This document shows positions 4,251 to 27,448 of a DNA stretch of 46,703 nucleotides, in pieces; position 1 is the stretch's first letter, and the number at the start of each line of letters is the position of its first letter. Below the pieces are notes generated by a model. The model ran no database searches. It was not told the origin of the DNA and worked only from the letters and a program-made list of their open reading frames with translations. The position numbers and the translations under genes were made by a program. This DNA is from Cyanobacteriota bacterium (GTDB lineage Bacteria > Acidobacteriota > Vicinamibacteria > Vicinamibacterales > UBA2999). The DNA lies in the NCBI GenBank assembly GCA_019752015.1, contig JAIEMQ010000049.1, positions 1-46,703 on the forward strand, in the 5' to 3' direction.

Positions 4251-4276
4251 CTCGCGCTCCCGTATTTGCGAGTCTA

Positions 4277-4301
4277 GCACGCATTGCACGCTATCGCACG
4301 C
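4277..4301. repeat. Three iterated GCACGC motifs beside the attachment site
   Basis: GCACGC occurs at 4277, 4286 and 4296, spaced 9 and 10 bases apart, close to one helical turn. The cluster lies between the integrase start and the tRNA-Ser 3' end, where tyrosine integrases often have arm-type binding sites. A binding role is inferred from position and spacing. Confidence 0.4.
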
Positions 4302-4339
4302 TGGGGCGAATGAGTCCTCGTAAGTTATTGATTTTATTA

Positions 4340-4430
4340 TGGCGGAGAGGGTGGGATTCGAACCCACGTGCCGCTTTCGCGACAACACGCTTTCGAGGCG
4401 CGCCCGTTACGACCACTTCGGTACCTCTCC
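4340..4430 (-). tRNA. tRNA-Ser (anticodon CGA)
   Basis: On the minus strand the acceptor stem GGAGAGG (4430-4424) pairs with CCTCTCC, followed by discriminator G and an encoded CCA (4342-4340). The anticodon loop CTCGAAA occupies 4397-4391, giving anticodon CGA for codon UCG. A long variable arm and a T-loop GTTCGAATC are visible, as expected for a serine tRNA. Its 3' end faces the integrase, so it is the probable integration target of the element on its left. The gene is intact, meaning that the element restored the 3' end on insertion. Confidence 0.95.
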
Positions 4431-13287: not shown

Positions 13288-13751
13288 CACAGCATCCTCT
13301 TCGCCGCCAGCTTCACTGCAGCATTGATGCGGTAATAGGTCATGCAGCGGCACAGCGTGTTCTTCATGCCGTCGCGGATCTGCGCGTCGGTGGGGTTCGG
13401 ATTCTTGTCGAGCAGCGCCTTCGCGGTGAGCATCTGCCCGTTCTGGCAGAAGCCGCACGCCGGCACCTGTTCATCGATCCAGGCTTGCTGGATCGGATGG
13501 AGATCGCCGCCTTTCGACAGCCCTTCGAGGGTGGTGACCTCGACGTTCTGCGCCTGCGACACCGGCCGCACGCACGAGCGCACGGCCTCGCCGTTAATCA
13601 GGACCGTGCAGGCGCCGCACTGGCCGAGTCCGCAGCCGAAGCGCGGGCCGGCGAGATCGAGATCGTTGCGAAGAATGTAAAGAAGCGGCGTGGAAGGCTC
13701 AGCCTCGACGGTGTGCCGCTTCCCGTTGACCAGCAGGTTCATGGCAGCCAT
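13287..13751 (-). CDS. [2Fe-2S] subunit of the molybdenum hydroxylase
   Basis: A 154-residue electron-transfer subunit binding two [2Fe-2S] clusters. The plant-ferredoxin-type cluster is held by Cys40, Cys45, Cys48 and Cys60 (FGCGLGQCGACTV), and the second by Cys99, Cys102, Cys134 and Cys136 (ACGFCQNG and LCRCMTY). All eight cysteines are present and the length is normal for the family. It is the first gene of the unit and its stop codon overlaps the start of the catalytic subunit (TGATG), implying coupled synthesis. It lacks a signal of its own and is probably exported bound to the Tat-bearing partner. The start may be the ATG at 13751 or the one at 13742. Confidence 0.95.
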   Translation of the reverse strand: MAAMNLLVNGKRHTVEAEPSTPLLYILRNDLDLAGPRFGCGLGQCGACTVLINGEAVRSCVRPVSQAQNVEVTTLEGLSKGGDLHPIQQAWIDEQVPACGFCQNGQMLTAKALLDKNPNPTDAQIRDGMKNTLCRCMTYYRINAAVKLAAKRML

Positions 13752-13828: not shown

Positions 13829-14371
13829 CTAAAAGCGGCGCAAGTAGGACGCTTTGATGAACAATCCGCGATTGATCATCAGGAAGCGATCACGCGCATC
13901 GACGGGCAGTCCGCTGCCGGGGACAGGCTCGACGGATCCAAAACCCTTCTCTTACAGCGATCCGTACCCGACGTGGAACACGGTGCCAGGCACGAACTCA
14001 TACGACGCGAGGAAGTCGGTCAGCACGCGATCGCGCGAGCTGTCGTATTGCGCGAGGAACCGCGCCAGGAAATGTTTGTCGAACTGATACGTAAAGGATC
14101 GACGGGCGTATCGCGTCGGCAACGACGTCAACGTGTTCGGCAATCGCGTCACGCGCGCGTTGCAGGCACCCAAGATCGACGGCGTCCTGGACGACGCGGC
14201 GTGGGCCCAGCTGGCGCCGATGCCGACGGGACAGTGGAGATCGTACAACCCCAACCGCGGCGACGACATGCCGGACATCTACAAGACCGAGGTCCGATAT
14301 TCAGCCTGCGACTGGGCGTGAGCAAGGGACGAGATGCAGAGACAGACACCGAGCGCGGCGAGAACCTTCAT
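13829..14371 (-). pseudogene. Rearranged remnant of a DUF5916 outer-membrane/CBM9-type gene
   Basis: Three pieces of one gene type lie together. At 14371-14300 (minus) an ATG begins a clean signal peptide, MKVLAALGVCLCISSLAHAQ. At about 14118-14302 the plus strand encodes the N-terminal carbohydrate-binding-like part, with PKIDGVLDDAAWAQL, YNPNRGDDMP and KTEVR. At about 14116-13829 the minus strand encodes the usual C-terminus: FTYQFDKHFLARFLAQYDSS, LTDFLASYEFVPGTVFHVGY and a final FIKASYLRRF. The C-terminal frame is broken by a TAA at 13954-13952 where a Tyr codon is expected. So an N-terminal segment is inverted and the large middle is lost. The start overlaps the upstream FAD oxidase stop as ATGA, so this was once the last gene of the operon. 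Confidence 0.75.
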
Positions 14372-16266
14372 TCGTGGGTTTGACGCGGTAACCCCGGAAT
14401 CGGTTGAGTCAGCCCCAAATGCTCCCGCCAGTACCTCGTCAGAAACAGTCCTTTCGGGTCGACGCGATCGCGAACGGCCTGCCATTTCTTCCAGCTCGGG
14501 TACAGCACGGTGAGACGATCGGGCCGGGCCGGGTCAGGCGCCGGCAGAAATTTGCCCCAGTGCAATCGATACCCGAGCGGTTCGAGCGCGTTCCAGAACT
14601 GCGGATAGAAGTCTGTGACCGGATTGCCGCGGTTGTGGCCAAACCAGAACACGTCGACGCGGAACGCGTGGCTCCCCGACGCGGGACTCAGGAAGAACTT
14701 GTCATCACGCTTGGCGACATACAGCTCGAATGCAAAGGCGCCGGTCGCCGCATAGGCGCCGCGCGCGGTGCCGTCGGCGTCAAAGCACCGCCGCAGCCGC
14801 GTGATGGCGTCCTGCAGCCGGCCATCACCCGGCGTGAACGGCACCCATAATTCGGTGAACCAGGTGGGCATCAGGAGATCGTCCATCTGATTGTCGAGCG
14901 GCAAGCCCATGAAGCCGCGATCGCAGAACTCCTGGATCGCCGCCGCGCCATCCTTGCCGGTGCTCACGAACAGGCTGAGCACCTCGTCGATGTGCTTCGG
15001 AACCAGCCCGCGCAGACGCGCCATCACGCCGCGCGGCAGCCGGCTTGCGATCACGCTGGCAAGCACGGCATCCACCGCGGTGGCCAGCAGTTGAATCATC
15101 CCCACCCAAGCCGCGCCGAGCACGATCGAATCCGGCCTCCCGCTGCGCGTTGTCGCGGTGTCGGAAGGATCGACGGGTCTCGTGATGCAGCCTTGCAGCC
15201 ATCGGCTCACGCCGCGCCAATCGGTATCCTTCCTGGCGTTGCGCATCCGGTTGACCTGGGCGATCGCGCGATCCGGCTCCTCGAGATTGCCGAGGACGGT
15301 GTAAATGATCGACGCGGCGACCTGCGAGGCCACCGGGAAGCGCCCGACTTGACGGTACGGATGGAGCTGACGCTGCGGCTCGAATGGCGCGCGTCGCGCC
15401 TGCCACACCACCAGGCGGTCGAAATTGCGTTGCGGCCACCACATCAACCGCGCGTAGTCGGCGTCGATCAGGAATTGCTCGAGCGACGGCAGCCCGCTGT
15501 CCGGGCGATCGCCGTAGAAATCGAGATCGCTCGAGCGCCTGGTGGCGCTGATCGTTTCACGGCCGACGATATCGAATGCCGGAATGCACCGGAACGTGAT
15601 CGTGCTGATGACGCCGCACAACCCCATGCCGAGGCCCGCGGCGTAAAACCAGTCGGGATCATCGCCGTCAGGCGTGAGCTCGACAACGCGGCCGCTGGCG
15701 TCGATGACTCGAAGCCTGGCGATGGCGTCGTGGATCGACCATTTCACCGTGCCCCCCGACGACCCCGTCGACACGTAGCCGGCTACGGTCTGATGCGAAA
15801 TGCCCCCGAGGTCGGGAAGCGCCAGCCGATCGCGGTGATGCAGCGTGGCCGTGAGGCTGTTGCTCCATGCGCCGTCGTGCCAGGGCGACGGCTCTCGAAC
15901 GGCGCTGCCTTCGGGTCGCTCGATGATGCGCGCCTGCGTGGGCCGTGCGGGCGACAGGCCGATGTGGCAGCCGGCCTGCACTTCGACCAGCCTGCCCTGC
16001 GGATCGGAGGGATCGATCTCCGCCTCGAACACCCTGACGTAGCGATCGAGCACTACAGGGAACTCGGCGGCCGGTGTCAGCGGACCGTTGAATTGATCGG
16101 TGACGATGGCGCGCCACACCGAGTGCGTCGATCCCATGACGCGCAGCTGCGTCCCGGACTCGTGCGCCTGCCGGATCAGCGCGGCGAGCTCGGACTCGGT
16201 GGCGGGGTGATAACACCCGTCAGCTTCGCGCGCGGGCAGCCGGGGGCACTCAGGCGACCAGGACAC
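14368..16266 (-). CDS. FAD-linked oxidase of the sugar-lactone oxidase type
   Basis: A 632-residue flavoprotein resembling D-arabinono/L-gulono-1,4-lactone oxidases. The FAD-binding PCMH domain starts near residue 25 (PATESELAALIRQAHESG, then RVMGSTHSVW, where a His in 'GSxHS' is the usual flavin-attachment position) and includes GGISHQTVAGYVSTGSSGGT. The C-terminal ALO-type region ends with RLHWGKFLPAP and DPKGLFLTRYWREHLGL. It is longer than typical ~430-residue members owing to inserts in the middle. The start is probably the GTG at 16266, overlapping the previous gene by 17 bases. In this operon it may oxidise the released product rather than a sugar lactone; that is inference. Confidence 0.8.
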   Translation of the reverse strand: MSWSPECPRLPAREADGCYHPATESELAALIRQAHESGTQLRVMGSTHSVWRAIVTDQFNGPLTPAAEFPVVLDRYVRVFEAEIDPSDPQGRLVEVQAGCHIGLSPARPTQARIIERPEGSAVREPSPWHDGAWSNSLTATLHHRDRLALPDLGGISHQTVAGYVSTGSSGGTVKWSIHDAIARLRVIDASGRVVELTPDGDDPDWFYAAGLGMGLCGVISTITFRCIPAFDIVGRETISATRRSSDLDFYGDRPDSGLPSLEQFLIDADYARLMWWPQRNFDRLVVWQARRAPFEPQRQLHPYRQVGRFPVASQVAASIIYTVLGNLEEPDRAIAQVNRMRNARKDTDWRGVSRWLQGCITRPVDPSDTATTRSGRPDSIVLGAAWVGMIQLLATAVDAVLASVIASRLPRGVMARLRGLVPKHIDEVLSLFVSTGKDGAAAIQEFCDRGFMGLPLDNQMDDLLMPTWFTELWVPFTPGDGRLQDAITRLRRCFDADGTARGAYAATGAFAFELYVAKRDDKFFLSPASGSHAFRVDVFWFGHNRGNPVTDFYPQFWNALEPLGYRLHWGKFLPAPDPARPDRLTVLYPSWKKWQAVRDRVDPKGLFLTRYWREHLGLTQPIPGLPRQTHE

Positions 16267-16684
16267 CAAACACTTTTCGATAGAGCCAGTTGATCGGCCC
16301 GAACGGCTGCACGAGCGAGCCCAGCGGATCGAAGTAGTCACGCAGGAACACCACCTTGCCGCCGCTGGCGCGGCACAGCGTCGCCATGTCGGTCCTGAAG
16401 TCGGGTCCGAAGCCGAAGGAGATCGTCATCGAGTAGGTGAGCGAGAACTGTTCGTCCGTGCCGATCACCTCGATGTCATGGAACTTGAACACCTTGTACT
16501 TGCGGAGCGCGGTATCCCAGGCTCCTCGAAACGCCACCAGCCCCTTCTCATCCGCCACCGGGTTGATGAAGTGCACCCGCTCGTCGTAGAGGTGCGGCAG
16601 CTCGTCGAGCGCCGCACGCCGCTCGACCGAGACGCGCTCGTAGAACTCTTTGATCCGACTGGGAAGACTCGCCGTCTGCAGCAT
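16250..16684 (-). CDS. NTF2-like (SnoaL-type) protein
   Basis: A 144-residue single-domain protein with the cone-shaped NTF2/SnoaL-type pattern: an N-terminal helix pair (RIKEFYERVSVERRAALDEL), the LYDERVHFINPV strand, and a later FLRDYFDPLGSLVQPFGP segment, which is common in nuclear-transport-factor-2-like proteins linked to oxidoreductases. These folds serve as cyclases, isomerases or binding proteins. It lies between an SDR and the FAD oxidase, which suggests a tailoring step. There is no signal peptide. The start ATG at 16684 has a GGAGAGCC-like sequence just upstream. Confidence 0.75.
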   Translation of the reverse strand: MLQTASLPSRIKEFYERVSVERRAALDELPHLYDERVHFINPVADEKGLVAFRGAWDTALRKYKVFKFHDIEVIGTDEQFSLTYSMTISFGFGPDFRTDMATLCRASGGKVVFLRDYFDPLGSLVQPFGPINWLYRKVFGVLVA

Positions 16685-16709
16685 CGTGGCTCTCCTGAAT
16701 CAACGCGCG

Positions 16710-17498
16710 TTACGCGCCGAAGTGACGCGCGATCAACGACTGGCCCGGTAGCACGTGCCGCAACCGCATCAGCCATTCCTGGGCCGCGGGGCCAACGACA
16801 TAACGGAATCGCGGCCGCGGGCTGCCGACAATGCGCGCGATCAAGCGCGCCAGCTGCTGCGGATCGGCGCCGGCACGCTCGTCGCGCGCGGCAATCTCGA
16901 GCGCACGGCTGCTGCGCTCCGCGTAGGCGCCGCCGTTGGACGGCACCGTGCGCCTGGCGTCGGTGAAGCCGGTGCGAAAATCGCCCGGTTGCACCAGCAC
17001 GACGCGGATCCCGAACGGCCGCACTTCGGCGCGCAACGCTTCGCTCAGTCCCTCGACGGCAAACTTGGTGGCGCTGTAGATGCCTTGAAACGGCAGCGAC
17101 AGCTCGCCCGCGATCGACGTGACGTTGACGATCAACCCGGCGCGCTCGCGTCGCATCACCGGAAGCACGCGTTGACACACGCGCATCACGCCGAAGACAT
17201 TGGTGTTGAACTGCGCCTGCGCCATCGGCAACGGCGTGTCCTCGATCGAACCGAACACGCCGTATCCGGCGCAGTTCACCACGACGTCGATGCGGCCTTC
17301 TCTCAGGAGGATGTGTTCAGTGCCGTCACCCACCGACTGGTCGTCGTCCACGTCCATCCTCAACGGCACCGCGTCGCTCAGCGGATCGACCGACCCGCGG
17401 CGGCTCGCCGCATACACCCGATGACCACTGGCGGCGAGCCATGCCGCCGTGGCCGCACCGAGTCCGGACGAGGCGCCGGTGACGAGCACGACCTTCAC
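16710..17498 (-). CDS. Short-chain dehydrogenase/reductase, possible keto-reductase after chain release
   Basis: A 262-residue classical SDR. The NAD(P) motif is TGASSGLG at residues 8-15, the NAG-type block reads VNCAGYG, and the active site has YSATK with Ser about 13 residues before (VTSIAG). An Arg pair after the second strand (AASRRGSV) favours NADPH. The GTG start at 17498 overlaps the oxoamine synthase stop as GTGA. Because oxoamine synthases make amino-ketones, an SDR translated directly after one recalls 3-ketosphinganine reductase, so reduction of the amino-ketone to an amino-alcohol is a reasonable guess. A general SDR role elsewhere in the pathway is not excluded. Confidence 0.85.
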   Translation of the reverse strand: MKVVLVTGASSGLGAATAAWLAASGHRVYAASRRGSVDPLSDAVPLRMDVDDDQSVGDGTEHILLREGRIDVVVNCAGYGVFGSIEDTPLPMAQAQFNTNVFGVMRVCQRVLPVMRRERAGLIVNVTSIAGELSLPFQGIYSATKFAVEGLSEALRAEVRPFGIRVVLVQPGDFRTGFTDARRTVPSNGGAYAERSSRALEIAARDERAGADPQQLARLIARIVGSPRPRFRYVVGPAAQEWLMRLRHVLPGQSLIARHFGA

Positions 17499-18769
17499 AT
17501 CGCCCTCGCGCGCAACAGGCCCTTCTCTCGCATCGCCGGCACGAACACGTCTTCGATGATCTGCAGCGCCTGGTCGAGCAGCGCGCGGGTATGCAGCGCC
17601 GTCACGCTGGCGCGAAACCGCGCCTGGTCGAGCGCCACGGTCGGGTAATCCACCGGCGTCACGAACAGTCCGTGCTCGCGCAGCTGATGGCCAAGCTGGT
17701 AAAGCAGCGCGCGGTTTTCGCCGACCACGATCGGCACGACGTAACTGGTCGACTCGCCGGTGTTGATGCCGAGCGATTGGAGTTGGGTCCTGAAATAGGC
17801 GGCGTTCTCCCAGAGCTGGGCGCGCCGCCAGGTCTCGGTCTGCATCACGTCGATCACCGCCGACGCCGCGGCCACGACCGACGGCGGCATGGCGCAGGTG
17901 AAGCCGTAGGTGTTGGCGTAGAAGCGCAGGTAGTCGATCAGGTCCGTCGACGCCGCCGCAAAACCGCCGCCGCACGAGAACGCCTTTGACAACGTGCCGT
18001 ACTGCACGCCGACTTTCGCGCGCATCCCGAAGTGTTCGACCACGCCGCCGCCGGTGTTGCCGCAGCAGAGGAACGAATGCGCCTCGTCCACGAGAATTCC
18101 GACGCCGTGACTCTCAGCCACCGCGATCAACGCCGGCAGATCGGCCAGGTCGCCGTCCATCGAATACAGTCCGTCGACGAAGATCAGCCGGCGCGCGCCG
18201 TTGTGCGCCGACAGCACTTCGTCGAGCGCGCGGGCGCTATTGTGCTCGAAGAACGCGATCTTCGCGCCGCCGACCTTCAGGCCGTCGACCATGGAAATGT
18301 GCGCGCGCGCATCGACAACGGCGACATCGCCCTTGCGCATCAGGCCGGCGGCACATCCCAGCGCGCCGCCGAAGCCGCTGTTGAACAGCAGCACCGCGGG
18401 ATAGCCGGTCAGCGCAGACAGCTTGATCTCGAGCGCCTGGTACAACGTGCTCTTGCCGGAAAGAATCGGCGAGCCGCACGCGCCAGTGCCGTAGTCGTCG
18501 AGCGCCTGCTTGGCTGCCGCGATCACCTTGGGATGGCGCACCAGGCCGAGATAGCCGTACGACGTCATGTTGATGACGCGCTGCTCGCCGGTCGCCGTGC
18601 GCAGCCGGTTGATCGGACCGGCCGGATCGCACAACACCGGCTCGTACAGCGACGTCGCCCACGCCGTATCGCGGCGCCACGCCACGTAATCGGCGGGCGG
18701 CGTGAGCGGACTATCCGAATCCGAGTAATAAAAATCCGCCAGGCTGAACTGGCTGGCTTCCCACGACAT
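17495..18769 (-). CDS. PLP-dependent alpha-oxoamine synthase (AONS/KBL/SPT family)
   Basis: A 424-residue fold-type I PLP enzyme of the family that condenses an acyl-CoA or acyl-ACP with an amino acid, releasing CO2 and giving an alpha-amino ketone. Family landmarks are MTSYGYLGL (about 69-77), YGTGACGSPILSG, the DEAHS block (Asp228-His231) and the PLP lysine Lys262 in YGTLSKAFSCGGG. The start at 18769 has GGAG 5 bases upstream. It follows the FabI-like SDR by 14 bases and overlaps the next SDR. With a dedicated carrier protein two genes upstream, it most likely offloads an ACP-bound chain, as in bacterial sphingolipid and prodiginine pathways. The amino acid used (Ser, Ala or Gly) cannot be told from the sequence. 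Confidence 0.92.
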   Translation of the reverse strand: MSWEASQFSLADFYYSDSDSPLTPPADYVAWRRDTAWATSLYEPVLCDPAGPINRLRTATGEQRVINMTSYGYLGLVRHPKVIAAAKQALDDYGTGACGSPILSGKSTLYQALEIKLSALTGYPAVLLFNSGFGGALGCAAGLMRKGDVAVVDARAHISMVDGLKVGGAKIAFFEHNSARALDEVLSAHNGARRLIFVDGLYSMDGDLADLPALIAVAESHGVGILVDEAHSFLCCGNTGGGVVEHFGMRAKVGVQYGTLSKAFSCGGGFAAASTDLIDYLRFYANTYGFTCAMPPSVVAAASAVIDVMQTETWRRAQLWENAAYFRTQLQSLGINTGESTSYVVPIVVGENRALLYQLGHQLREHGLFVTPVDYPTVALDQARFRASVTALHTRALLDQALQIIEDVFVPAMREKGLLRARAM

Positions 18770-18783
18770 CTCAACTCCGCCTT

Positions 18784-19608
18784 TCAACCGAGCGCCGGGG
18801 CCGCGAGCTCGACGCCAAGCGCATCGCGGCGCTCATAGATGTACGAAATGCCGTCGAAGAAGGTGTTGCCGCGATCGACCATGATCGTCTGGCCGCTGAC
18901 GCCGTCGAACAGGCCCGAGCACAGCGCAAACGCGGCGCGCCCGACTTCATCGGGCCTCATGAACCACTCCTCGGCGACGAACTGGTTGAGGAAACCGTAG
19001 AACTCCTGGCCGAAGGTCCCGTCGAACGACTCGGTCTTGATCGCGCGCGAGCGGAGCGCATTGATGCGCACGCCGTGATCGCGCAGGCGGTAGGCCGCGT
19101 ACTTCACCATCGTTTCGACAACCGCCTTGCCGGCGGCGACGAAGTCGTAGCCGGGAGTAAAACGATCCGGGCCGTCCGACGACATCACCACCACGTAGCG
19201 CGGATAGGCGCCGCAGATCTTGTGAATCTCGGTGAGGTACTCGAACGTCGGCCAGCCGGTGCCGCGCATGCTCTTCAGAAAGCCGCGCTCCGTGTAGTCG
19301 GCCAGGCCGCCGACCACCAGCGACACCGACGCGTTGCTGATCAGGGCGTCGACCTTGCCGAAGCGATCGCGTACCGCCGTCACCAGCGCGGTGGTGTCGT
19401 CGGACCGCGTCGCATCCGCCTGCACGACGAGCGGCGGCGGCCCGCCGGCCGCAACGATGCGATCGCTGACCTCTTGTTCGTCGGCGCTGCCCCACGCATG
19501 CGTCAGCACCAGCTGGGCGCCATGCGCCGCGAACACCAGCGCGGTCGCGAACCCGAGACCGCGCGTGCCGCCCGTGATCACGACCACGCGGCCGTCGTAG
19601 CGGGTCAC
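18784..19608 (-). CDS. FabI-like SDR (enoyl reductase candidate), copy 2
   Basis: A 274-residue SDR with TGGTRGLG near the N-terminus and a catalytic pair spaced as Tyr154-x6-Lys161 (GYDFVAAGK), the spacing typical of enoyl-ACP reductases of the FabI type rather than Tyr-x3-Lys of ketoreductases. It is a close paralogue of the SDR on the other side of the carrier protein gene: both share LTHxWGSADE and AAGGPPP. The GTG start at 19608 overlaps the carrier protein stop as GTGA. It probably reduces a double bond on the ACP-bound intermediate, perhaps the methyl-branched one. Substrate choice is inference. Confidence 0.85.
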   Translation of the reverse strand: MTRYDGRVVVITGGTRGLGFATALVFAAHGAQLVLTHAWGSADEQEVSDRIVAAGGPPPLVVQADATRSDDTTALVTAVRDRFGKVDALISNASVSLVVGGLADYTERGFLKSMRGTGWPTFEYLTEIHKICGAYPRYVVVMSSDGPDRFTPGYDFVAAGKAVVETMVKYAAYRLRDHGVRINALRSRAIKTESFDGTFGQEFYGFLNQFVAEEWFMRPDEVGRAAFALCSGLFDGVSGQTIMVDRGNTFFDGISYIYERRDALGVELAAPALG

Positions 19609-19871
19609 GGCTTGGCCAGCTCGCCCGTGTTGCTCTTGATGTCGTACAACAAGCCGACCAGGCCATCGAGGTTGGTCAGCTTGTTCAGCTCGGTCCGCGG
19701 CACCTTCACTTTCAACTCGCGCATCGCGCCCGAGACGACTTCGACGATATCGAGGCTGTTGGCGCCGTAGTCCTTCATCGATCGCATCGGATCGATCGTC
19801 TTGGGATCGAGGCCGTCGACAGATGAGGCGAGGTGGCGGGCAACAACGGCGAGCACTTCTTCACGGGTCAT
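19605..19871 (-). CDS. Acyl carrier protein
   Basis: An 88-residue carrier protein. Helix 2 begins with the phosphopantetheine site Ser39 in DYGANSLDIVEVV, a variant of the usual DSL motif with Asn before Ser. The rest shows four-helix spacing with a basic stretch (ELKVKVPRTELNK) that replaces the usual acidic helix-2/3 surface, hinting at dedicated partners. It overlaps the genes on both sides by four bases (ATGA and GTGA). As the only carrier protein of the operon it must serve chain extension, beta-branching and release, unless the primary fatty-acid ACP is shared. The longer upstream reading frame to 20183 is antisense-type noise. Confidence 0.93.
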   Translation of the reverse strand: MTREEVLAVVARHLASSVDGLDPKTIDPMRSMKDYGANSLDIVEVVSGAMRELKVKVPRTELNKLTNLDGLVGLLYDIKSNTGELAKP

Positions 19872-20686
19872 GGGTGTCTCCTGGTGACGATGGGATGAAT
19901 GTCTCGTTCCTGATACAGCCGGCTGAAGTTTTCGTACAAGCCCGCGCCGCGATCGACGGTCAGGACCTGGCCGCCGAGGGCGTCCATCAAGCCCGAACAG
20001 ACGCCGACAATCGCGTCGGCAATCTCTTCGGGCGACGAGAGCACATCGGGTTCGAATTGGCGGACGAAGGGAATGAAGTCCTCGCCGAAGGTGTCGGCAA
20101 GCGACGTGGTATCCACGAAACGCGTGCGGACGATGTTGACGGTGGTGCCTTCCTCGCGCAGCCGGTAGTGCAGGTAGCGGCACAGCGTTTCGAGCACCGA
20201 CTTCGCGGTGGCGATCAGGTCATAGCCGGCATGCATCGTGTCGATGCCGGCCGACGACAGGCCGACGACGTAGCGCGGCGCCTTGCCGAAAATCTTGCGC
20301 GCCGCCAGCGTGTGGGTGACGAGCGGCCACGCGGAGTAATTGATGCCGGCATCGAGCGCCTGCTTCGAGTAATCGTCGACACCGCGGACGGTCGCGCCGA
20401 ATGCGGCGTTGGAGATCAGCACTTCGAGACGCTCGTGATCGCGGCGAATGCCGTCCAGCACCGCCGCCACGTCGTCCTCGTTCGCGGCATCGGCCGGGAC
20501 GATTGACGGCGGCGGTCCGCCGGCAGCGGCGAAGAGCGCGGCGATTGCCGCTTCGTCGGCGGAGCCCCATTTGTGAGTCAGGGTCACGCGGGCGCCGCGC
20601 CGGGCAAAGGCCAGGCCGGTGGCCAGTCCGATGCCGCGGGTCCCGCCGGTGACGAGGACGGCGCGGCCCGGGAAGTCATTCCACAT
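19868..20686 (-). CDS. FabI-like SDR (enoyl reductase candidate), copy 1
   Basis: A 272-residue SDR with TGGTRGIG at about 13-20 and the FabI-type pair Tyr155-x6-Lys162 (GYDLIATAK). It is paralogous to the SDR just downstream of the carrier protein gene, and the two differ mainly in the substrate-loop region (100-130) and C-terminus. It starts inside the end of the second hydratase gene (11-base overlap) and its stop overlaps the carrier protein start (ATGA order reversed by strand). Two such enzymes suggest two different double-bond reductions, for example ordinary elongation and the beta-branch. Confidence 0.85.
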   Translation of the reverse strand: MWNDFPGRAVLVTGGTRGIGLATGLAFARRGARVTLTHKWGSADEAAIAALFAAAGGPPPSIVPADAANEDDVAAVLDGIRRDHERLEVLISNAAFGATVRGVDDYSKQALDAGINYSAWPLVTHTLAARKIFGKAPRYVVGLSSAGIDTMHAGYDLIATAKSVLETLCRYLHYRLREEGTTVNIVRTRFVDTTSLADTFGEDFIPFVRQFEPDVLSSPEEIADAIVGVCSGLMDALGGQVLTVDRGAGLYENFSRLYQERDIHPIVTRRHP

Positions 20687-21401
20687 AGCTGTCCTCGATC
20701 AGCCGCGAGGCGGCGGTGAGCGTGATCTGGTGCATCAGGGACTCCTGGGTGACCGAGGTCTCGAACGCGCGCCGCCGTGGCAACGACAGCGTGCGCTTGA
20801 GGGCAGTGACGGCCTGGCGCGGCTTCTCCGCAATGCGCGCGGCGAGGTCCATCGCCGCGATTTCGACTTGCCGGCGAGGCAGCACGTGATTGATTCCCGA
20901 GCCCGCGAACCGGCGCCCCCGCCGCAGCTCGCCCGTATACAGCAACTCGTGCGCGACCGCCGCCGAGAGCACGTGCTCGCAGAGCATCGTCGTCCCCATG
21001 CCCGGCGTGAAACCGAGATTCATGAACGTGAAACCGTAGCGGCTGTCCTCGGCGATCAACACGATGTCGGCCGCGAGGCCGAGGGCAAAGCCGCCGCCGG
21101 TCGCATGACCCGCCATCGCCGCGACGACAGGCACCGAACAATCAAGCAACAGCCTTGGCAACACGATGTCGGCCGGTCGCAACTCGCCCGCGGCGAGACG
21201 CAGCAGCAACTCGCGCGGCGCGCCCGATGAAAAGGTCTCACCCTCACCGGACATCACGACGACGCGCACCTCGGGATCGCGATCAATCGCGTCGAAGGCA
21301 GCCGTCAAGGCGTGGACCATCGTTTCGCCGAGGGCATTCGCGGAGGCCGGATCAGCGAGCACCAGCCGCGCGGTGCCGTCGCTCGTCGTCAGTCGGACCA
21401 T
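20676..21401 (-). CDS. Enoyl-CoA hydratase/isomerase family protein (beta-branch decarboxylase candidate)
   Basis: A 241-residue crotonase-fold protein. Seen are the oxyanion-hole segments GEGETFSSGAPR (about 52-63) and GHATGGGFALGLAADIVL, followed by GFTFMNLGFTPGMGTTMLC. The position where hydratases have a catalytic Glu ('PE') reads MNLGFTPG, so one of the two acidic residues of hydratases is missing; PksI/CurF-type decarboxylases also lack hydratase glutamates. It is the second of two adjacent crotonase-fold genes after the HMG-CoA synthase-like gene, the order known for the dehydratase/decarboxylase pair of beta-branching cassettes. The decarboxylase role is inferred from order and from that missing residue. 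Confidence 0.8.
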   Translation of the reverse strand: MVRLTTSDGTARLVLADPASANALGETMVHALTAAFDAIDRDPEVRVVVMSGEGETFSSGAPRELLLRLAAGELRPADIVLPRLLLDCSVPVVAAMAGHATGGGFALGLAADIVLIAEDSRYGFTFMNLGFTPGMGTTMLCEHVLSAAVAHELLYTGELRRGRRFAGSGINHVLPRRQVEIAAMDLAARIAEKPRQAVTALKRTLSLPRRRAFETSVTQESLMHQITLTAASRLIEDSYVE

Positions 21402-22102
21402 GGCGACTCCCCGGCGGCGAAGGATTCCCAGCGGCGCTGCACCGATGGTTGGCCCACCATCGCGCCCGTGATCGCGGCGCCGCGGCGAAGCGCGGCGGGA
21501 AGATCATCGTGGCGGGACTCGCGCGCCCAGCTTCGCAGCCGCTGCAACGCTGCGGGATCGAGACGCCGCAGCGTCCGCAGGCCGCGCGACATGCCGCGAT
21601 CGAGGTGATCGTGCGGCACGAGATCGTCAACCAGTCCGGCCGCCTGCGCTCCGGTGGCGGAGCGTGAATGTGCAGACACGGTCCACTGACGCACCACGTG
21701 CGGGGCCATGCGATCAGTAAGGACGGGCCAGATGATCGCGGGCACCAGTCCCCACAACAATTCGGGGAGCGCGAACGTCGCGCGTTCGGTCGCGACCACC
21801 CAGTCGCAGGCGCACGCCAGTCCCATGCCGCCGCCGATCGCGCGACCGTCAACGATCGTCAGCAGCGGCTTCGGTGATCGATGGAGCGCGCTCAACAGAT
21901 CGGAGAAAGCGAACGTCGCCGCGCCGCCGGAGCTCGAGCCGATCGCCATGCCGAGGCAATAGGTGTCCGCATCCGCACCGATCAGCATGACGATCGGCGC
22001 GGGCGAATCGAGCGCCGCCTGCAGCTCGCGCGTCAGCTTCGCCATCGACGCCGCGTCGAGATCGATCGGCAGTCGCACGGTCGCCGTGTGCATCAGCTCC
22101 AT
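21389..22102 (-). CDS. Enoyl-CoA hydratase family protein (beta-branch dehydratase candidate)
   Basis: A 237-residue crotonase-fold protein. The core is recognisable: DGRAIGGGMGLACACDWVVA forms the second oxyanion-hole strand and helix, and TFALPELLWGLVPA keeps the conserved 'PE' glutamate of hydratases. The first oxyanion-hole segment is divergent (ADADTYCLGMAIG). The gene overlaps the HMG-CoA synthase-like gene by 10 bases and the next crotonase gene by 13. By analogy with PksH/CurE it would dehydrate an HMG-ACP-like adduct. The C-terminal third is unusually Arg-rich and shorter than in typical 255-residue members. Confidence 0.8.
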   Translation of the reverse strand: MELMHTATVRLPIDLDAASMAKLTRELQAALDSPAPIVMLIGADADTYCLGMAIGSSSGGAATFAFSDLLSALHRSPKPLLTIVDGRAIGGGMGLACACDWVVATERATFALPELLWGLVPAIIWPVLTDRMAPHVVRQWTVSAHSRSATGAQAAGLVDDLVPHDHLDRGMSRGLRTLRRLDPAALQRLRSWARESRHDDLPAALRRGAAITGAMVGQPSVQRRWESFAAGESPWSD

Positions 22103-23319
22103 GCGTACTCCCGGTAGTAATTCCGCGTGCCGCGGAACACCAGCTTGTGCTGACCGGCGTAATGCGAGTCGTAGAGCGAAGGGAGGAGCTCAGCCGGCGG
22201 TGTCCAGTCGCTCGCGCACGTCGCTGCCGATGTCGCGCGCTCGCACGCTTCGTATTCGTGCACGGTCACCGGGCGCCGGTTGGCGAGCTGCGGCCCGACG
22301 CGCGCTTCCGCAATCGCGATGCGCGCCTCCGCGCCAAGGGTCCCGCTGTAAAACTCGGCGCACGATCCCGAGCCGTAGCTGTAGATGCCAATGCGATCGC
22401 CCCCCGCGAGCGACGGATGGGTGTCGATGAGGCCGGCCAATGCGAGAAAGGTGGCCGCACCGTAGACGCCGCCGGTGCGGCGGTTATAGGTGAGCGATGC
22501 CTTGGATTTCCTGCACCAGTGCTGCTCCGCTTCGGCCTTCGACAGCGTCATCTCGCGCCGCGCGAGCCGGAAGTGCGCGCGTTGCGCGAGGCCGCCGAAC
22601 GGCACGTGATAGATGTTGGCGGCGAAAAACTGATCGAAGTCAATCGCGTGCCCGACGCGCGCGACATACGCGTCGTAGGTCAACTCCACCGCGTCGAGGT
22701 ACGACAGCAGGCTCTCGTCGGCATCGCCGGTCTCGACGCCTGGCGCGGGACGGAAGATGTCGGCGACTTCATGCGCGTAGACGCCGTTCCAGCCGGGATC
22801 GAACTCGATGATGCGCGGGTTGTTGGAGACGAGCAGCGCCACGCCCGCGGCGCCGAGCACCGGTTCCTGCGGTCCCTCGAGATGCATCAAGGCGTGATCG
22901 GCGTTGACGATCAGCGCCTTCGCCGCCGGATCGCCCGACGACCGCAACCAGCCGGCCGCGACGTGCAGCGCGCCGGTGGCGCCGTAGCAGGCGTGCTTCA
23001 CTTCGAAGTTGCGGCAATCGGAACGGAGGCCGAGAAAATGGTGGAGCCAGGAACTGACGGGCTTCTCCTGATCGGGCGAGGACTCCGTCGCGACGATCAG
23101 CAGCCGAATCGCGTCACGATCGGCGCCGGTCAGCATCGTCAGCGCCGCGTTGACGCCGAGGGTGACGACGTCTTCGAACGGCCCCATCACCGACCGTTCG
23201 TCGCACAACAACCGGCCGCAGAAGTTTGCCGCATCGAGGCCGCGCGCGTCGCACAGCTCGGCGATGTCGAGCGACAGCGCGCACGGGTAGACGCCGAGTT
23301 TCTCGATGCCGATGCCCAT
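22093..23319 (-). CDS. HMG-CoA synthase-like enzyme (beta-branching type)
   Basis: A 408-residue thiolase-superfamily enzyme of the 3-hydroxy-3-methylglutaryl synthase family. The catalytic triad is complete: Glu79 (ATESSPD), Cys111 (VKHACYGATGAL) and His238 (IYHVPFGGL), with spacing very close to that of bacterial MvaS. The start is the ATG at 23319, 2 bases after the FabG stop; upstream reading to 23451 is antisense noise. No other mevalonate gene is nearby, whereas two crotonase-fold proteins, a ketosynthase and a carrier protein are, so I favour a beta-branching function on an ACP-bound beta-keto chain. An HMG-CoA-derived isovaleryl starter route is an alternative. Confidence 0.92.
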   Translation of the reverse strand: MGIGIEKLGVYPCALSLDIAELCDARGLDAANFCGRLLCDERSVMGPFEDVVTLGVNAALTMLTGADRDAIRLLIVATESSPDQEKPVSSWLHHFLGLRSDCRNFEVKHACYGATGALHVAAGWLRSSGDPAAKALIVNADHALMHLEGPQEPVLGAAGVALLVSNNPRIIEFDPGWNGVYAHEVADIFRPAPGVETGDADESLLSYLDAVELTYDAYVARVGHAIDFDQFFAANIYHVPFGGLAQRAHFRLARREMTLSKAEAEQHWCRKSKASLTYNRRTGGVYGAATFLALAGLIDTHPSLAGGDRIGIYSYGSGSCAEFYSGTLGAEARIAIAEARVGPQLANRRPVTVHEYEACERATSAATCASDWTPPAELLPSLYDSHYAGQHKLVFRGTRNYYREYAWS

Positions 23320-23321
23320 GG

Positions 23322-24071
23322 CTAGTGCAACCAGTCCAGCCCGCCGGTGACGCCCAGCTCCTGGCCGTTCACGAACGACGCGCCATCGCTGGCGAGAAAC
23401 AGCACCGCGGCCGCCACTTCCGGCACCTGGCCGATGCGGCCGACCGGACAATGCGCCGTGTAGAATTCCCGGTTCTTCGCCGAGAGCTCCTTCATCGTCA
23501 TCTCGGTTTCGAACAAGCTCATCAACAACGCGTTGCTGGTGATGCCCTTGCGGCCGTACTCCTTTGCCAGCGCTCCCGACAAGCCGAGCATCCCGGCTTT
23601 GCTGGCGCTGTAGGCCACGTCGCCCGACATGCCGTTCGCCGCGATCGACGACATGAAGATGAAACGGCCATAACCGTTGGCGAGAAACGCCGGCAGGAAT
23701 TGCCGGGCCACGAAGAACGATCCGGTGAGATTGGTGTCGACGACCGCGCGCCAGTCTTCATCGGACGCGGCGATCGCCATGCCGGCATGCGTGATCGCGG
23801 CATTGGCCACCACCACGTGTACCGTCTCGAACGCGTCGAGCACCTGGTCGCCGACTCGTTCCACCGCAGCCGAGTCACGCACATCGAGTTGATAGGCTGC
23901 GCACCGCGCTTCCGGTGACTCGGCTCGCACCGTCGCCAGCAGGGTTTCCGCCGCATCGCGCCGTTCGCGGTAGGTGAATGCCACGTCGTAACCGCTGCGG
24001 GCCGCCGCCGCCACCACGCCGGCGCCAATCCCGCGCGATCCTCCGGTGATGAACAGCACGCGCCGCGTCAT
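23322..24071 (-). CDS. 3-oxoacyl-ACP reductase (FabG-like SDR)
   Basis: A 249-residue FabG-type ketoreductase. TGGSRGIG at 9-16 binds NADP(H); NAAITHAGM, MSSIAANGMSG and YSASKAG supply the Asn-Ser-Tyr-Lys tetrad; the C-terminus FVNGQELGVTGGLDWLH resembles FabG 'VTGGM' endings. I prefer the ATG at 24071, which overlaps the ketosynthase stop as ATGA, over the upstream in-frame start at 24089. It probably reduces the beta-keto group during each extension round. A Met/Glu-rich loop (LFETEMTMKELSAKN) differs from housekeeping FabG and suggests a dedicated substrate. Confidence 0.92.
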   Translation of the reverse strand: MTRRVLFITGGSRGIGAGVVAAAARSGYDVAFTYRERRDAAETLLATVRAESPEARCAAYQLDVRDSAAVERVGDQVLDAFETVHVVVANAAITHAGMAIAASDEDWRAVVDTNLTGSFFVARQFLPAFLANGYGRFIFMSSIAANGMSGDVAYSASKAGMLGLSGALAKEYGRKGITSNALLMSLFETEMTMKELSAKNREFYTAHCPVGRIGQVPEVAAAVLFLASDGASFVNGQELGVTGGLDWLH

Positions 24072-25348
24072 GACTGGTAGGTGCGCCACAAGCTGACGCA
24101 GTTGATGCCGCCGAATCCGAACGAGTTCTTGAGCATCACGTCGGCCGCGTGATCGACCGGACCATCACGGCACACGTCGAGATCAACTTCCGGATCGAGC
24201 TCGTCGATGTTGATCGATCGATGCAGCTTCCCGGCGCGGAGCTGCAGCAGGCCGGCCACGGTTTCCACGGTCGGCGCCGACCAGCAGCAATGACCGAGCA
24301 TCGACTTGGGCGCGTTGATGCGCAGCCGCGTCGCATGCTTGCCGAAGACGCGCTTGATCGACCGCAGCTCTGTCAGATCGCCGAGCGGCGTCGACGTGGC
24401 ATGCGCGTTGACGTAACCGATGTCTTCAGGACGGAGCCCGGCATCGGCGATGACGCGCGTCATCACGTGGGCTTGCCCTTCTTCCGAAGGCTGCGGCAAA
24501 TGGTTGCCGTCAGAGTTGGCCGCGCAGCCAAGCACTTCCGCATAGATGCGGGCGCCGCGTCGCTTTGCCGCCTCGAGCTCTTCGAGCACCAGCGTCGCGC
24601 CGCCATGCGCCGGCACGAAGCCTTCGCGCCGCGTGTCGTAGGGACGGCTGGCGCGCGCCGGCTCGTCGTTGAATTTCTGGAATGCGATCGCGCCCATCAG
24701 GGCCATCGCGTGCACGTCGATCGGCGCAAATTCCAGGACCGCGCCGACCACCATCGCGACCTCGGCGCCGTGATGGCGAATCTCGTCCACCGCCGCGCGC
24801 AACGAGACGTTGCCGCTCGCGCATGCCGCACCAACCGTATAGATCGGGCCGCGCGCCTGCAGCACTTCCGAGACGCAGCCCGCATGGTCGGTATCGAGCG
24901 AATAGAGCGACGTCATCCCGTCGATGAAGTCGGGCTCCTCCTCGAACTGGATGCGGGTGTTGAATTGATACAGCGCGTTCAGGTTGTGCCCGGCCACGAT
25001 CACGGCCTGGCGGTGCGGGTCGTGGCCGCTCTCGAACAACCCGGCGTCGCGCCAACCGTCGGCCGCGAGCAGCATCGACAGCTTCGTGGTCCACGGCACC
25101 TTGCCCACCAGCTTGCGCAGGCGCTTGTGCACGTCGGGAGGAATCAGCGGCTCGAGGGCGGACAGCTTGGCGGCGACGTTGTAGGCGGACAGATCGCCGC
25201 CGACCTTGCTGTAAATCCGATCGGTAGAAAATGCCTGCCACTGGGAAATCGCCGACCGGCCGGCCATCAAGGCGTCGCTGAACCCGTCGAGCGTGTCGCC
25301 GATCGCAGTGTTGACGCTCATACCGGTGACGACGATCCGCTTATTCAT
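24068..25348 (-). CDS. Beta-ketoacyl-ACP synthase (KAS II-like, divergent)
   Basis: A 426-residue ketosynthase with the Cys-His-His triad intact: Cys176 (GAACASGN), His316 (NAHATSTPLGD) and His353 (MLGHCCWSAP). The last block is unusual, since most family members read 'GHxxGAAG'; here CCWSAP follows the His. Because the active-site Cys is kept, it should condense as well as decarboxylate, unlike the Cys-to-Ser decarboxylases of many beta-branching cassettes. It overlaps the dehydratase gene by 8 bases and FabG by 4. No chain-length-factor partner is present, so it probably works as a homodimer. Confidence 0.92.
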   Translation of the reverse strand: MNKRIVVTGMSVNTAIGDTLDGFSDALMAGRSAISQWQAFSTDRIYSKVGGDLSAYNVAAKLSALEPLIPPDVHKRLRKLVGKVPWTTKLSMLLAADGWRDAGLFESGHDPHRQAVIVAGHNLNALYQFNTRIQFEEEPDFIDGMTSLYSLDTDHAGCVSEVLQARGPIYTVGAACASGNVSLRAAVDEIRHHGAEVAMVVGAVLEFAPIDVHAMALMGAIAFQKFNDEPARASRPYDTRREGFVPAHGGATLVLEELEAAKRRGARIYAEVLGCAANSDGNHLPQPSEEGQAHVMTRVIADAGLRPEDIGYVNAHATSTPLGDLTELRSIKRVFGKHATRLRINAPKSMLGHCCWSAPTVETVAGLLQLRAGKLHRSINIDELDPEVDLDVCRDGPVDHAADVMLKNSFGFGGINCVSLWRTYQS

Positions 25349-25874
25349 CGACGAGGACCTCAGAGATGGCGAACGCGGCCAGCGTGTCGCCGCGCCAGGC
25401 CTGGCCGGTGGCGATCATCGTGTAGTCGTCGTGCGCGACCCGCGCGCACAGCGTGATTTGGTCGCCAGGGTGTAGCGGCGCGACGAAGCTCGCGTGGTGA
25501 ACATGGATGGCGCGCACCGCCTTCGGTGCGAGATCGTCGGGCACGTCGGTGCGCCGGCCCCCGACGAAGTGTGACAAGGTGAGCGCGAGCTGACCTATCG
25601 CCTCGACGAGGAGCACGCCCGGATAGATCGGCGCGGCCGGAAAATGACCCGCGAACCCGAGATCGTCCGCCCGCAACAACCGGTGGCCGCGCACACCGCC
25701 GCTCTCGAGATCGACGATGTCGATGCCGTCGACGAGCAGCATCGGCGCACGGTGCGGCAGGAGCCGCTGCAGGCCGTCGATGCCAATCGACACCGTCGCG
25801 CCCGATCCCGCCGGGACCAGCGGACCGCGCTTCGCCGCGGCGATCAGCGGCCGCAGCCGATCGGGCTCAAGCAC
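25341..25874 (-). CDS. FabZ-like 3-hydroxyacyl-ACP dehydratase
   Basis: A 177-residue hot-dog-fold protein. The FabZ signature is clear: LLPHRAPMLLVDGI, then GHFPAAPIYPGVLLVEAIGQ with the catalytic His in GHFP and Glu in VEAIGQ. It is longer than FabZ (~150) by about 25 residues at the N-terminus. The start is GTG at 25874, inside the end of the acyltransferase gene (8-base overlap). It should remove water from beta-hydroxyacyl-ACP to give the enoyl substrate of the FabI-like reductases. Confidence 0.9.
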   Translation of the reverse strand: MLEPDRLRPLIAAAKRGPLVPAGSGATVSIGIDGLQRLLPHRAPMLLVDGIDIVDLESGGVRGHRLLRADDLGFAGHFPAAPIYPGVLLVEAIGQLALTLSHFVGGRRTDVPDDLAPKAVRAIHVHHASFVAPLHPGDQITLCARVAHDDYTMIATGQAWRGDTLAAFAISEVLVDE

Positions 25875-26871
25875 GGAGCGCCTCCATGGTGGCGGACCAG
25901 TGCGCGCGTGGATCGATCCCCTCGGGCGCGTCGACCCGCACCCGCGGCGTGCCGCGCCAGGTGCGGCCGATCATGTTGTGCAGCACGCCGCCCGGTCCAA
26001 CCTCGATCAAGACGGTCTCCGGGTCAGCCGCGACGATGCGATCGATCGAGTGCTGCCACAACACCGGCTCGCTGACGTGACGCGTCAGGTGTGAAACGAA
26101 CGCGCTCGCGGTGGGATTGGCGATTGGCGCGCCGCCAACGTTTGGCTGGTAGGCCCGCGACGGCACTCGCCACGGCGCGCGCTGCAGCGCCGGCGCGAAG
26201 GCCTGCGCGACCGGCGCCATCATCGGCGAGTGCATCGGCACGCGCCGCTCGATGATCGTAATGTGCGCGAGGTGCTCGTCCTCGAGTGTCGCGGCGGCCC
26301 ACGTCACGGCCGCTGCCGCGCCGGCGATCACGTGCTGCGTCGGCGCATTGATATTGCTGATCGCGATCGGTCCGTGCACGCGCGCCCGCTCGACCACGGC
26401 GGCGACGCTGTCGCGATCGACCGCGAGTACTGTCGCCATGATGCCGGGCGGCGCTTCGTCGTAGCAGCGGCCGCGCTCGTCGACGAGGCGCAAGGCGTCT
26501 TCGAAACCCAGCGCGCCGATGTGGACCAGGTGGCTGTATTCCCCCAGGCTCAGCCCGAGAGAGCCGCCGGCCTCGATGCCTTCGGCCTGCAGCGCCGCCA
26601 GATACATTTGTGTCGCCAGGAAGACGGTGATCTGCGTGTCGCGATTGCTGCGCAGCGTCGCCTCGTCGGCGCCGAGATAGACGGCGGCGCGCTCCTCGCC
26701 CAGCACCTCCCGCGCACGATCGGCAACCTGGTCGGCGGCCGGATGGACGCGTCGCGCCCGCGACAAAATCGTCGCGCCGCCCGAGCTCTGGCCGGGGAAC
26801 ATGAACCACCGCGAGGCCGTTGCCGGCGGCGCGGTGCGCGCCTCGTTCCGATGTAGGATGTGGGTGCCCAT
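25867..26871 (-). CDS. Malonyl-CoA:ACP acyltransferase (FabD/trans-AT type)
   Basis: A 334-residue acyltransferase and first gene of the operon. Seen are FMFPGQSS near residue 23, the nucleophile elbow Gly106-Leu-Ser108-Leu-Gly110 (GLSLGEY, where FabD usually has GHSLGE), a carboxylate-binding Arg candidate at 133-135 (ERGR) and the partner His214 (PMHSP). Loss of His before the Ser is uncommon. It would load malonyl units onto the carrier protein. The gene is divergent from the ECF sigma factor gene with 106 bases between starts, so its promoter must lie there. The start has no clear ribosome site. Confidence 0.9.
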   Translation of the reverse strand: MGTHILHRNEARTAPPATASRWFMFPGQSSGGATILSRARRVHPAADQVADRAREVLGEERAAVYLGADEATLRSNRDTQITVFLATQMYLAALQAEGIEAGGSLGLSLGEYSHLVHIGALGFEDALRLVDERGRCYDEAPPGIMATVLAVDRDSVAAVVERARVHGPIAISNINAPTQHVIAGAAAAVTWAAATLEDEHLAHITIIERRVPMHSPMMAPVAQAFAPALQRAPWRVPSRAYQPNVGGAPIANPTASAFVSHLTRHVSEPVLWQHSIDRIVAADPETVLIEVGPGGVLHNMIGRTWRGTPRVRVDAPEGIDPRAHWSATMEALRA

Positions 26872-26977: not shown

Positions 26978-27448
26978 ATGGATTTCGAGTCGCTCTACCG
27001 ACAACATGTGCAGGCGGTGTTCCGTTTCGCAATGAGCATCACGCGGCGCCGCGACATCGCCGAGGACCTCACGTCGGAGGCGTTCCTGGCCCTGCATCGG
27101 GAGATCGACTCGATCGATCCGGCGCAACTGCCGGCGTGGCTGCTGACGGTCGTGCGCAACCGCGCGCGGGACCTGTGGCGTCATCAAGCGATCGAGGAGC
27201 GATACGCCATCGACAAGAAACCTGCCGCGACGCCGGCCGCGCCCCCGCCGTCATCGTTGGAAGAGTGGATTCTGGAGGGCGCCGGACTGAAACCGATTCA
27301 CCGGTTGTGCGTGATGCTGCGCTACGTCTCCGGCATGACGCGGGCCGAGATTGCCGCTGAGATCGGCATCAGCGAGACGCAGGTGAAAGGCCATTTGCAA
27401 TACGCGTTGTCCCTGCTTCGGAAGGCGCATGGAGTGCGCCAGGTATGA
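26978..27448 (+). CDS. ECF-type RNA polymerase sigma factor
   Basis: A 156-residue sigma-70-family factor of the extracytoplasmic type. Region 2 covers residues 1-62 (FESLYRQHVQAVFRFAMSIT, EDLTSEAFLALHR, WLLTVVRNRARDLWR) and region 4 covers about 100-150, with the helix-turn-helix MTRAEIAAEIGISETQVKGH. A proline/alanine-rich linker joins them. Its last bases overlap the next gene (ATGA), so the sigma factor and its partner are made together. In this group the partner usually senses envelope state and holds the sigma factor inactive. Its regulon is unknown, though the divergent operon is an obvious candidate. Confidence 0.93.
   Translation: MDFESLYRQHVQAVFRFAMSITRRRDIAEDLTSEAFLALHREIDSIDPAQLPAWLLTVVRNRARDLWRHQAIEERYAIDKKPAATPAAPPPSSLEEWILEGAGLKPIHRLCVMLRYVSGMTRAEIAAEIGISETQVKGHLQYALSLLRKAHGVRQV

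Follow-up and report, generated by a model that had tools for sequence, protein, structure and literature searches.

Does a single minus-strand gene array on contig JAIEMQ010000049.1, which sets a polyketide-type beta-branching cassette beside a pyridoxal phosphate (PLP)-dependent alpha-oxoamine synthase (AOS), encode one pathway, and what would that pathway make? The window, meaning the whole stretch of DNA analysed, comprises 46,703 nucleotides (positions 1 to 46,703, forward strand, assembly GCA_019752015.1) and is contig C40 of a 5.9-Mb genome deposited as a Cyanobacteriota bacterium and placed by GTDB in the Acidobacteriota (Vicinamibacteria; Vicinamibacterales; UBA2999). Fourteen open genes run on its minus strand from 26871 down to 14368, in the order acyl transferase (AT), dehydratase (DH), ketosynthase (KS), FabG, HMG-CoA-synthase-like enzyme (HCS), two crotonases (ECH1 and ECH2), enoyl-reductase-like protein (ER1), acyl carrier protein (ACP), second enoyl-reductase-like protein (ER2), AOS, short-chain dehydrogenase/reductase (SDR), SnoaL-like protein and FAD-linked oxidase. 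We consider it fairly probable, judging from the enzyme families encoded, that the genes together encode a dissociated (type II) synthase dedicated to acyl-chain building, from which an AOS resembling serine palmitoyltransferase (SPT) would receive a beta-methyl-branched acyl-ACP and make a branched sphingoid-type base.

The argument starts from what is observed directly: gene content, conservation, tree positions and intact catalytic residues. The cassette is recognisable by its HCS (22093-23319, ATG start at 23319), whose best matches in the PDB are CurD (262 bits) and PksG (248 bits), followed by 8s81, named HMG-CoA synthase-like (232 bits), with HMG-CoA synthases scoring at most 186 bits. 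The protein also misses the model for prokaryotic HMG-CoA synthase (TIGR01835; 253.7 bits, cut-off 360.35). In a tree of 90 rows, L146 and L147 (mvaS, over the NCBI cut-off) and five HCS-like proteins encoded at other places in the genomes searched are split, with SH-aLRT support of 99, from the 83 others; among the latter are PksG, CurD, the operon HCSs and those of cyanobacterial modular clusters. The window HCS groups with those of loci L016, L017 and L018 at support 100. This tree, like the AOS trees below, was built in quick mode, is unrooted and carries long-branch warnings. Cys110, Glu78 and His237, numbered from residue 1 of the reading frame at 22093-23316, are present in 71 of 71 rows; this and the following residue counts cover the window and one best match per locus, with 10 loci labelled modular or non-operon left out. 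The decarboxylase-type crotonase ECH2 (20676-21401) finds CurF ECH2 and PksI as its best PDB matches and passes the polyketide-type model NF005496 (PRK07110; 235 bits, cut-off 215). The dehydratase-type ECH1 (21389-22102; PF00378) has NF005498 (PRK07112) as best model at 91 of 250 bits and 4nnq as best structure, followed by other crotonases, with PksH (3hp0) further down.

The AOS (17495-18787; PF00155) scores below the cut-offs of TIGR01825 (316 of 535 bits), BioF (316 of 426) and the glycine C-acetyltransferase KBL (278.9 of 460). In a tree of 76 rows, a branch with SH-aLRT 99 separates all 45 operon AOSs (the window's and those of 43 loci, L079 giving two rows) from 18 KBL-like and 10 Bacteroidetes-SPT-like sequences, two of the rhodobacterial-SPT type (one being the SPT of E. 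coli BL21) and BioF of E. coli. The operon AOSs themselves fall into a group of 37 rows, the window's among them (support 99), and a group of eight (100), the latter on a long branch flagged by the program and made up of Bacteroidota, L052, L074, L081 and one of the two L079 rows. The two AOS genes of L079 (11206-17516) fall one in each of these groups. The sequences of L139, L140 and L126 (a duplicate) were left out of this tree, and those of L121, L124 and L125 were cut to their last 420 residues; a second tree, without BioF and the short L057 and L083 sequences and with long rows trimmed, gives the same three-way split. The PLP lysine (Lys268 in the window), the aspartate, one histidine and the arginine are present in 42 of 44 rows, with two gaps, the other histidine in 43 of 44, and the serine before the PLP lysine in 42 of 44.

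Family-level annotation alone (HMG_CoA_synt, Aminotran_1_2) would allow a plainer account, in which a mevalonate-type HMG-CoA synthase and the glycine C-acetyltransferase of threonine breakdown sit side by side among fatty-acid genes. We regard this as extremely improbable and reject it: tree and PDB ranking place the HCS with polyketide beta-branching enzymes, the AOS lies outside the KBL group, the two co-occur repeatedly in distant phyla, and the genome encodes a separate KBL-type enzyme elsewhere. That other AOS-family member, L002, passes the cut-offs of both TIGR01825 (572 of 535 bits) and glycine C-acetyltransferase (491 of 460). A first-pass annotation, made from the DNA letters and their open reading frames, had coupled the cassette to the AOS and had named, among the findings that would overturn its reading, placement of the HCS with mevalonate enzymes and of the AOS with KBL, neither of which is seen here.

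What chain the AOS would receive can be read from the enzymes encoded around it. The MdcH/FabD-like malonyl/acyl transferase AT (25867-26871; PF00698, 5e-18; MdcH 150 and FabD 146 bits, both below cut-off) has its serine in 31 of 33 rows, with two gaps, and its histidine in 33 of 33, and the FabZ/FabA hot-dog dehydratase DH (25341-25874; PF07977) keeps histidine and glutamate in 49 of 49. Three proteins of the SDR fold differ in the spacing of their catalytic pair. The FabG-type ketoreductase (23322-24089; TIGR01830, 197 bits) shows Y-x3-K, with tyrosine in 64 and lysine in 65 of 65 rows, and Y-x6-K is found in 48 of 49 rows for ER1 (19868-20686) and in 20 of 20 for ER2 (18784-19608); the two spacings mark ketoreductases and enoyl reductases, respectively. 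Both ER proteins match PF13561, and the FabL model is best for ER1 (93 of 328 bits) and second for ER2 (98 of 328). The stand-alone ACP (19605-19871; PF00550, motif GANSLD; PRK07117 best, 48.5 of 79 bits) has its serine in 51 of 51 rows.

The condensing enzyme KS (24068-25348) belongs to the PRK07103 (PksF-type) branch (NF005490, 355 of 445 bits) and has the complete catalytic set Cys-His-Lys-His in the window, with the cysteine present in 52 of 52 operon-type rows among KS gene calls of 350-520 aa. According to PMC9600693, SHH in place of the active-site cysteine is characteristic of decarboxylating KSs. The operon KS lacks this replacement and keeps its cysteine, and it therefore looks competent for condensation; the same feature disfavours a pure decarboxylase. 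A different state is seen in L071 (1-9269, a Competibacteraceae record with ACP, KS, HCS and ECH1), where alanine replaces the KS cysteine, as expected for a decarboxylating KS. The catalytic residues that the first-pass annotation had picked out are thus present in the window and conserved in related loci.

Downstream of the AOS, with a GTG start overlapping the AOS stop, lies the gene for an SDR (16710-17498) whose best model among 214 is the 3-ketodihydrosphingosine reductase KdsR (NF049977; 273.8 bits, cut-off 400). The first-pass annotation had given this gene no special mention. A KdsR-like SDR within the operon means that an amino alcohol product fits.

From these enzyme families we infer the order of steps, the branch, the amino acid and the product. 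AT would load malonyl onto the operon ACP, and KS, FabG, DH and the enoyl reductases would run fatty-acid-like cycles on that one carrier. At least once, the beta-keto-acyl-ACP would be diverted to HCS, ECH1 and ECH2: HCS would add acetate, and dehydration and decarboxylation by ECH1 and ECH2 would leave a beta-methyl enoyl chain that an enoyl reductase could saturate. Acetyl-ACP could come from decarboxylation by the operon's sole KS or from a housekeeping enzyme. The window genome has two other full-length matches to the PRK07103 model, many spirochaetal and Aminicenantes loci hold a second KS (that of L054 passes the FabF cut-off), and L070 also has a FabH over its cut-off. The AOS would then join the branched chain to an amino acid, most likely serine, possibly alanine or glycine, in a decarboxylative condensation that frees it from the ACP, and the KdsR-like SDR would reduce the 3-keto group to yield a branched sphingoid-type amino alcohol. 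Where a gene for a bacterial ceramide synthase (bCerS) adjoins the operon, as in some relatives, ceramide would follow.

A variant compatible with this scheme has the HCS cassette act only once, at the beginning of the chain on acetoacetyl-ACP, giving a 3-methylcrotonyl- or isovaleryl-like starter and hence an iso-branched long-chain base. Enzymes of the HMG-CoA synthase family use an acetoacetyl thioester as substrate, iso-branched long-chain bases are common in bacteria, and the operon KS, which keeps its cysteine, might also prime the chain; we rate the variant as possible, if doubtful. As for the branched amino-ketone or amino-alcohol lipid that the first-pass annotation had foreseen, the coupling of cassette and AOS is supported and the KdsR-like SDR fits the amino alcohol, and the position of the branch, the amino acid and the final lipid stay at the level of prediction.

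Whether the array is a chance assembly can be judged from its recurrence. Used as a query, the window HCS finds a match in 3 of 43 family genomes (E 1e-30) and in 4 of 396 phylum genomes (E 1e-60), its own genome included in both counts. In two genomes of another genus, the genes from AT to ER2 recur in identical order at 60-82% identity, followed by a fatty-acid-hydroxylase-like gene (best model OlsE, ornithine-lipid hydroxylase, 186 of 475 bits) and then the AOS; a diverged version of the AT-to-ER2 set with AOS occurs in another family of the phylum. The comparison with other acidobacterial genomes that the first-pass annotation had suggested thus returns the same gene order. Because the order recurs in the two other-genus genomes and, in diverged form, in several phyla, the arrangement is more than chance. 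For the same reason a remnant of a modular polyketide synthase is ruled out, each enzyme being a separate intact gene in a set that recurs.

In a wider scan of genome contigs with one HCS query, the best 80 of 111 relatives were kept as loci, and tblastn found an AOS beside the cassette in 43 of the 80. These AOS-bearing loci come from Acidobacteriota including Aminicenantes, Myxococcota (Nannocystis, Plesiocystis, Enhygromyxa), Spirochaetota, Bacteroidota, one Pseudomonadota record, FCPU426 and unclassified bins. A further 23 loci have KS, FabG and HCS without AOS, all but three of them having 2.1 kb of sequence or less on at least one side, and 14 show neither pattern. Four of the loci (L016, L017, L060 and L090) lie on the same contigs as L008, L009, L010 and L011, and most records are metagenome-assembled genomes in which mis-binning is possible, as for L031, which is named Saccharibacteria and stands among Bacteroidota in the HCS tree. 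The frequency with which the AOS accompanies the cassette, together with the separation of these AOSs from KBL, SPT and BioF, supports the coupling as free-standing enzymes. Because related gene sets occur in several unrelated phyla, the operon is probably an undescribed lipid pathway and not a one-genome curiosity. A second, more distant beta-branching arrangement is seen in L092 (Parachlamydiaceae) and L095 (Byssovorax), where HCS, FabG, ECH2, ER, ACP and KS stand in a different order and no AOS was seen.

Neighbouring genes in these loci bear on the kind of lipid that is made. Counts of neighbours are lower bounds, since they come from rough gene calls in which genes of high-GC loci can be missed or fused (the bCerS of L062 and L087, for example). 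With Aminicenantes taken as part of Acidobacteriota, the largest cluster of unassigned neighbours comes from 15 loci of five phyla. Its members align with E. coli BL21 YghO over 356 residues or more, nearly the full length, at 31-35% identity and with E values of 6e-60 to 1e-73. In PMC9386255, yghO is the acyl-CoA N-acyltransferase (aca) of ceramide synthesis, alongside spt, acpR, epi and aasR, and PMC11087976 has bCerS act after SPT. A bCerS profile built from the 15 members gives 61 matches in 49 genomes (~303.5 Mb), and the family lies inside 17 of 45 loci (0.816 Mb of locus sequence) where ~0.16 would be expected; the 45 loci were picked mostly for holding an AOS and are mutually related and not independent, and the profile itself was made from 15 of the 17. 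By itself the family is not unusual: within the phylum of the window, 52 of 199 genomes have it. In one Nitrospinota genome (G437, contig C208), a two-piece bCerS match directly follows an SPT-like gene.

Other neighbours are of mixed specificity. Eight members of an NAD-epimerase cluster match epi (CerR) of BL21, at 26-29% or, for one fragment, 35%; a CerR-like profile gives 15 epimerase-type matches in the window genome and is too broad to single out a CerR there. L034 and L041 encode weakly AcpR-like ACPs and acyl-AMP ligases 36-37% identical to AasR. Bacteroidota loci have PAP2 (five loci), fatty-acid hydroxylase (three) and desaturase (three) genes nearby, a CDP-alcohol transferase lies beside L019 and L054, and a phosphopantetheinyl-transferase cluster recurs in seven loci; Pfam was run on one or two members of each such cluster. 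Nine cassette-bearing Spirochaetota, Aminicenantes and Nitrospinota genomes (L116-L124) also have an SPT-like gene apart from the cassette (NF047600: 473-584 bits, cut-off 640), and two long-chain-base systems may coexist in them.

The same distribution could be read as that of a secondary metabolite, in which a short or functionalised branched chain is released by the AOS as an alpha-amino ketone and becomes a signal, a pyrazine or a pyrrole-type product tailored by the SnoaL-like protein and the FAD oxidase. The patchy occurrence within family and phylum would suit such a product, as would tailoring genes that vary among carriers, a FAD oxidase confined to the window's own genome among the 43 family genomes, and a window genome in which no bCerS was found. 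We judge it unlikely, given the bCerS genes in 17 of 45 related loci, the KdsR-like SDR within the operon, the full fatty-acid cycle with two enoyl reductases and the core conserved in several phyla. A branched sphingoid-type base accordingly stays our preferred product for the operon as a family, and ceramide is not claimed as the product of the window organism, whose genome yielded no YghO-type synthase.

Several observations weigh against a branched-chain synthase feeding an SPT-like enzyme. The AOS scores 289, 256 and 218 bits on three SPT models with cut-offs of 640, 500 and 670, and it is placed outside the SPT groups in the trees; an outright SPT was not adopted on these grounds. A single origin of all 45 operon AOSs appears likely from the trees, set against their two separate groups and the unrooted topology. 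For the adjoining SDR, the KdsR score is below cut-off, KdsR is the second-best model in L009 (206 bits), and in the Bacteroidota loci L032, L043 and L091 the 25 best models do not include it. The HCS needs donor and acceptor acyl-ACPs, yet the operon encodes a single ACP, and this carrier has no tryptophan in 50 of 51 rows, with V or I at the flag position. Two marks of classical modular beta-branching are thereby absent, the Cys-less decarboxylating KS and the acceptor ACP flagged by the conserved tryptophan that PMC9600693 describes for such carriers. Three loci (L020, L025 and L029) hold the cassette without an adjacent AOS despite more than 2.1 kb on both sides. Ligases resembling AasR are found in modular loci of cyanobacteria as well, which makes that link unspecific. 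Finally, the search for bCerS of the YghO family found none in the window genome (best E 0.116), nor in G009 and G011, its two closest operon-bearing relatives.

Comparison with known systems locates the operon between two chemistries. Beta-branching is familiar from modular polyketide factories, and the HCS, ECH1, ECH2, KS and ACP of the operon are of the same families as those of the pksX (PksF-PksI/AcpK) and curacin (CurB-CurF) cassettes. Unlike these, the operon has no modular synthase, keeps the KS cysteine, lacks the tryptophan flag on its ACP, and encodes free-standing AT, FabG, DH and enoyl reductases together with an AOS. With bacterial sphingolipid synthesis as in Caulobacter and E. 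coli BL21 (SPT, AcpR, AasR, epi/CerR, aca/bCerS) it shares a PLP oxoamine synthase and a dedicated ACP, as well as, in relatives, the bCerS and the weak AcpR-like and AasR-like neighbours described above. It differs in that the chain is seemingly built de novo and not activated from free fatty acid by AasR, that the AOS stands outside the SPT groups, and that no bCerS was found in the window genome. Polyketide amino ketones such as prodiginines and fumonisin (Fum8) offer the parallel of a carrier-bound chain released by an AOS; their pathways use multidomain polyketide synthases and are not known to have an HCS cassette. We know of no dedicated chain-building or beta-branching operon for the Bacteroidetes sulfonolipid/capnine pathway. 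That pathway (PMC9304779) resembles the operon in having an SPT-like first enzyme and a long-chain amino lipid.

Every enzyme family involved is already known, and PMC9386255 gives precedent for SPTs supplied by a dedicated ACP. The literature searched, with most subscription journals and all preprints lying outside it, contained no description of a beta-branching chain synthase made of free-standing enzymes and linked to an SPT-like one, of the AOS group, or of the spread across phyla, and it is in these three respects that the system appears new. More tentatively, and with slightly less than even confidence, we propose a horizontally spread pathway, in at least five phyla, for de novo beta-methyl-branched (isoprenoid-like) long-chain bases, in which polyketide beta-branching would become part of how membrane sphingolipids are made and a new group of AOSs would release the chains. 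If so, many bacteria, including cultured Nannocystis, Plesiocystis and Enhygromyxa, may make branched sphingoid-type lipids that are usually not sought in lipidomics, and the AOS group would serve as a sequence marker for likely producers. The small, one-ACP enzyme set would also offer a handle on what determines the point at which a growing chain is branched.

At the level of the array itself, the first-pass annotation had described fourteen intact, overlapping genes. All are open, their names agree with the best Pfam and NCBIfam models, and with the best starts adjacent genes overlap by 4-22 bases at 10 of the 13 joins. FabG and HCS are separated by a 2-base gap and SDR and SnoaL by a 25-base gap, and the SnoaL/FAD-oxidase join is a 92-base overlap; alternative FAD-oxidase starts exist at codons 24-25, and the called start is probably too early, the true start lying ~70 bases later. 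The first twelve genes, AT to SDR, exceed the Pfam gathering scores, and among the NCBIfam models listed ECH2 alone of the fourteen passes a cut-off. The small SnoaL-like protein (16250-16684) is marginal (PF12680, 26.2 bits, gathering score 27). The last gene (14368-16341) encodes a FAD-linked oxidoreductase of sugar-lactone-oxidase type (PF04030, PF01565; TIGR01678 below cut-off), with weak PDB matches to galactonolactone dehydrogenase; by NCBIfam and PDB matches, the FAD oxidase and the SDR resemble DprE1/DprE2 weakly, and a role of that kind for the pair is at most tentative. The operon has a G+C content of 0.669, and its flanks 0.636 and 0.644.

The span first proposed for the operon began at 13829, and here it must be shortened, since 13829-14367 contains no recognisable gene of the set. 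A 108-aa open reading frame just downstream of the operon (13952-14278) has no Pfam or NCBIfam match; its C-terminal part resembles the final strands of a barrel protein of the outer membrane, and the frame may be a gene remnant. Next to the end of the operon lies a molybdenum hydroxylase pair (10987-13751; 2Fe-2S and molybdenum-cofactor subunits), and L011/L090 has a comparable pair close to an HCS cassette that is not accompanied by an AOS. Further left, a tyrosine-recombinase-like open reading frame, recognised by eye (3039-4388, minus strand), overlaps a tRNA-Ser gene (4340-4430), which suggests the edge of an integrated element extending to the left, away from the operon. For an empty-site comparison, the flanking protein at 28302-31034 was searched in nine genus genomes and gave a match at E 1e-100 or better in its own genome alone. 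Genes for an extracytoplasmic function (ECF) sigma factor and a protein with weak TPR matches (26978-28386) run divergently from the operon, 106 bp from its start, and the ECF sigma factor is a possible regulator of the operon.

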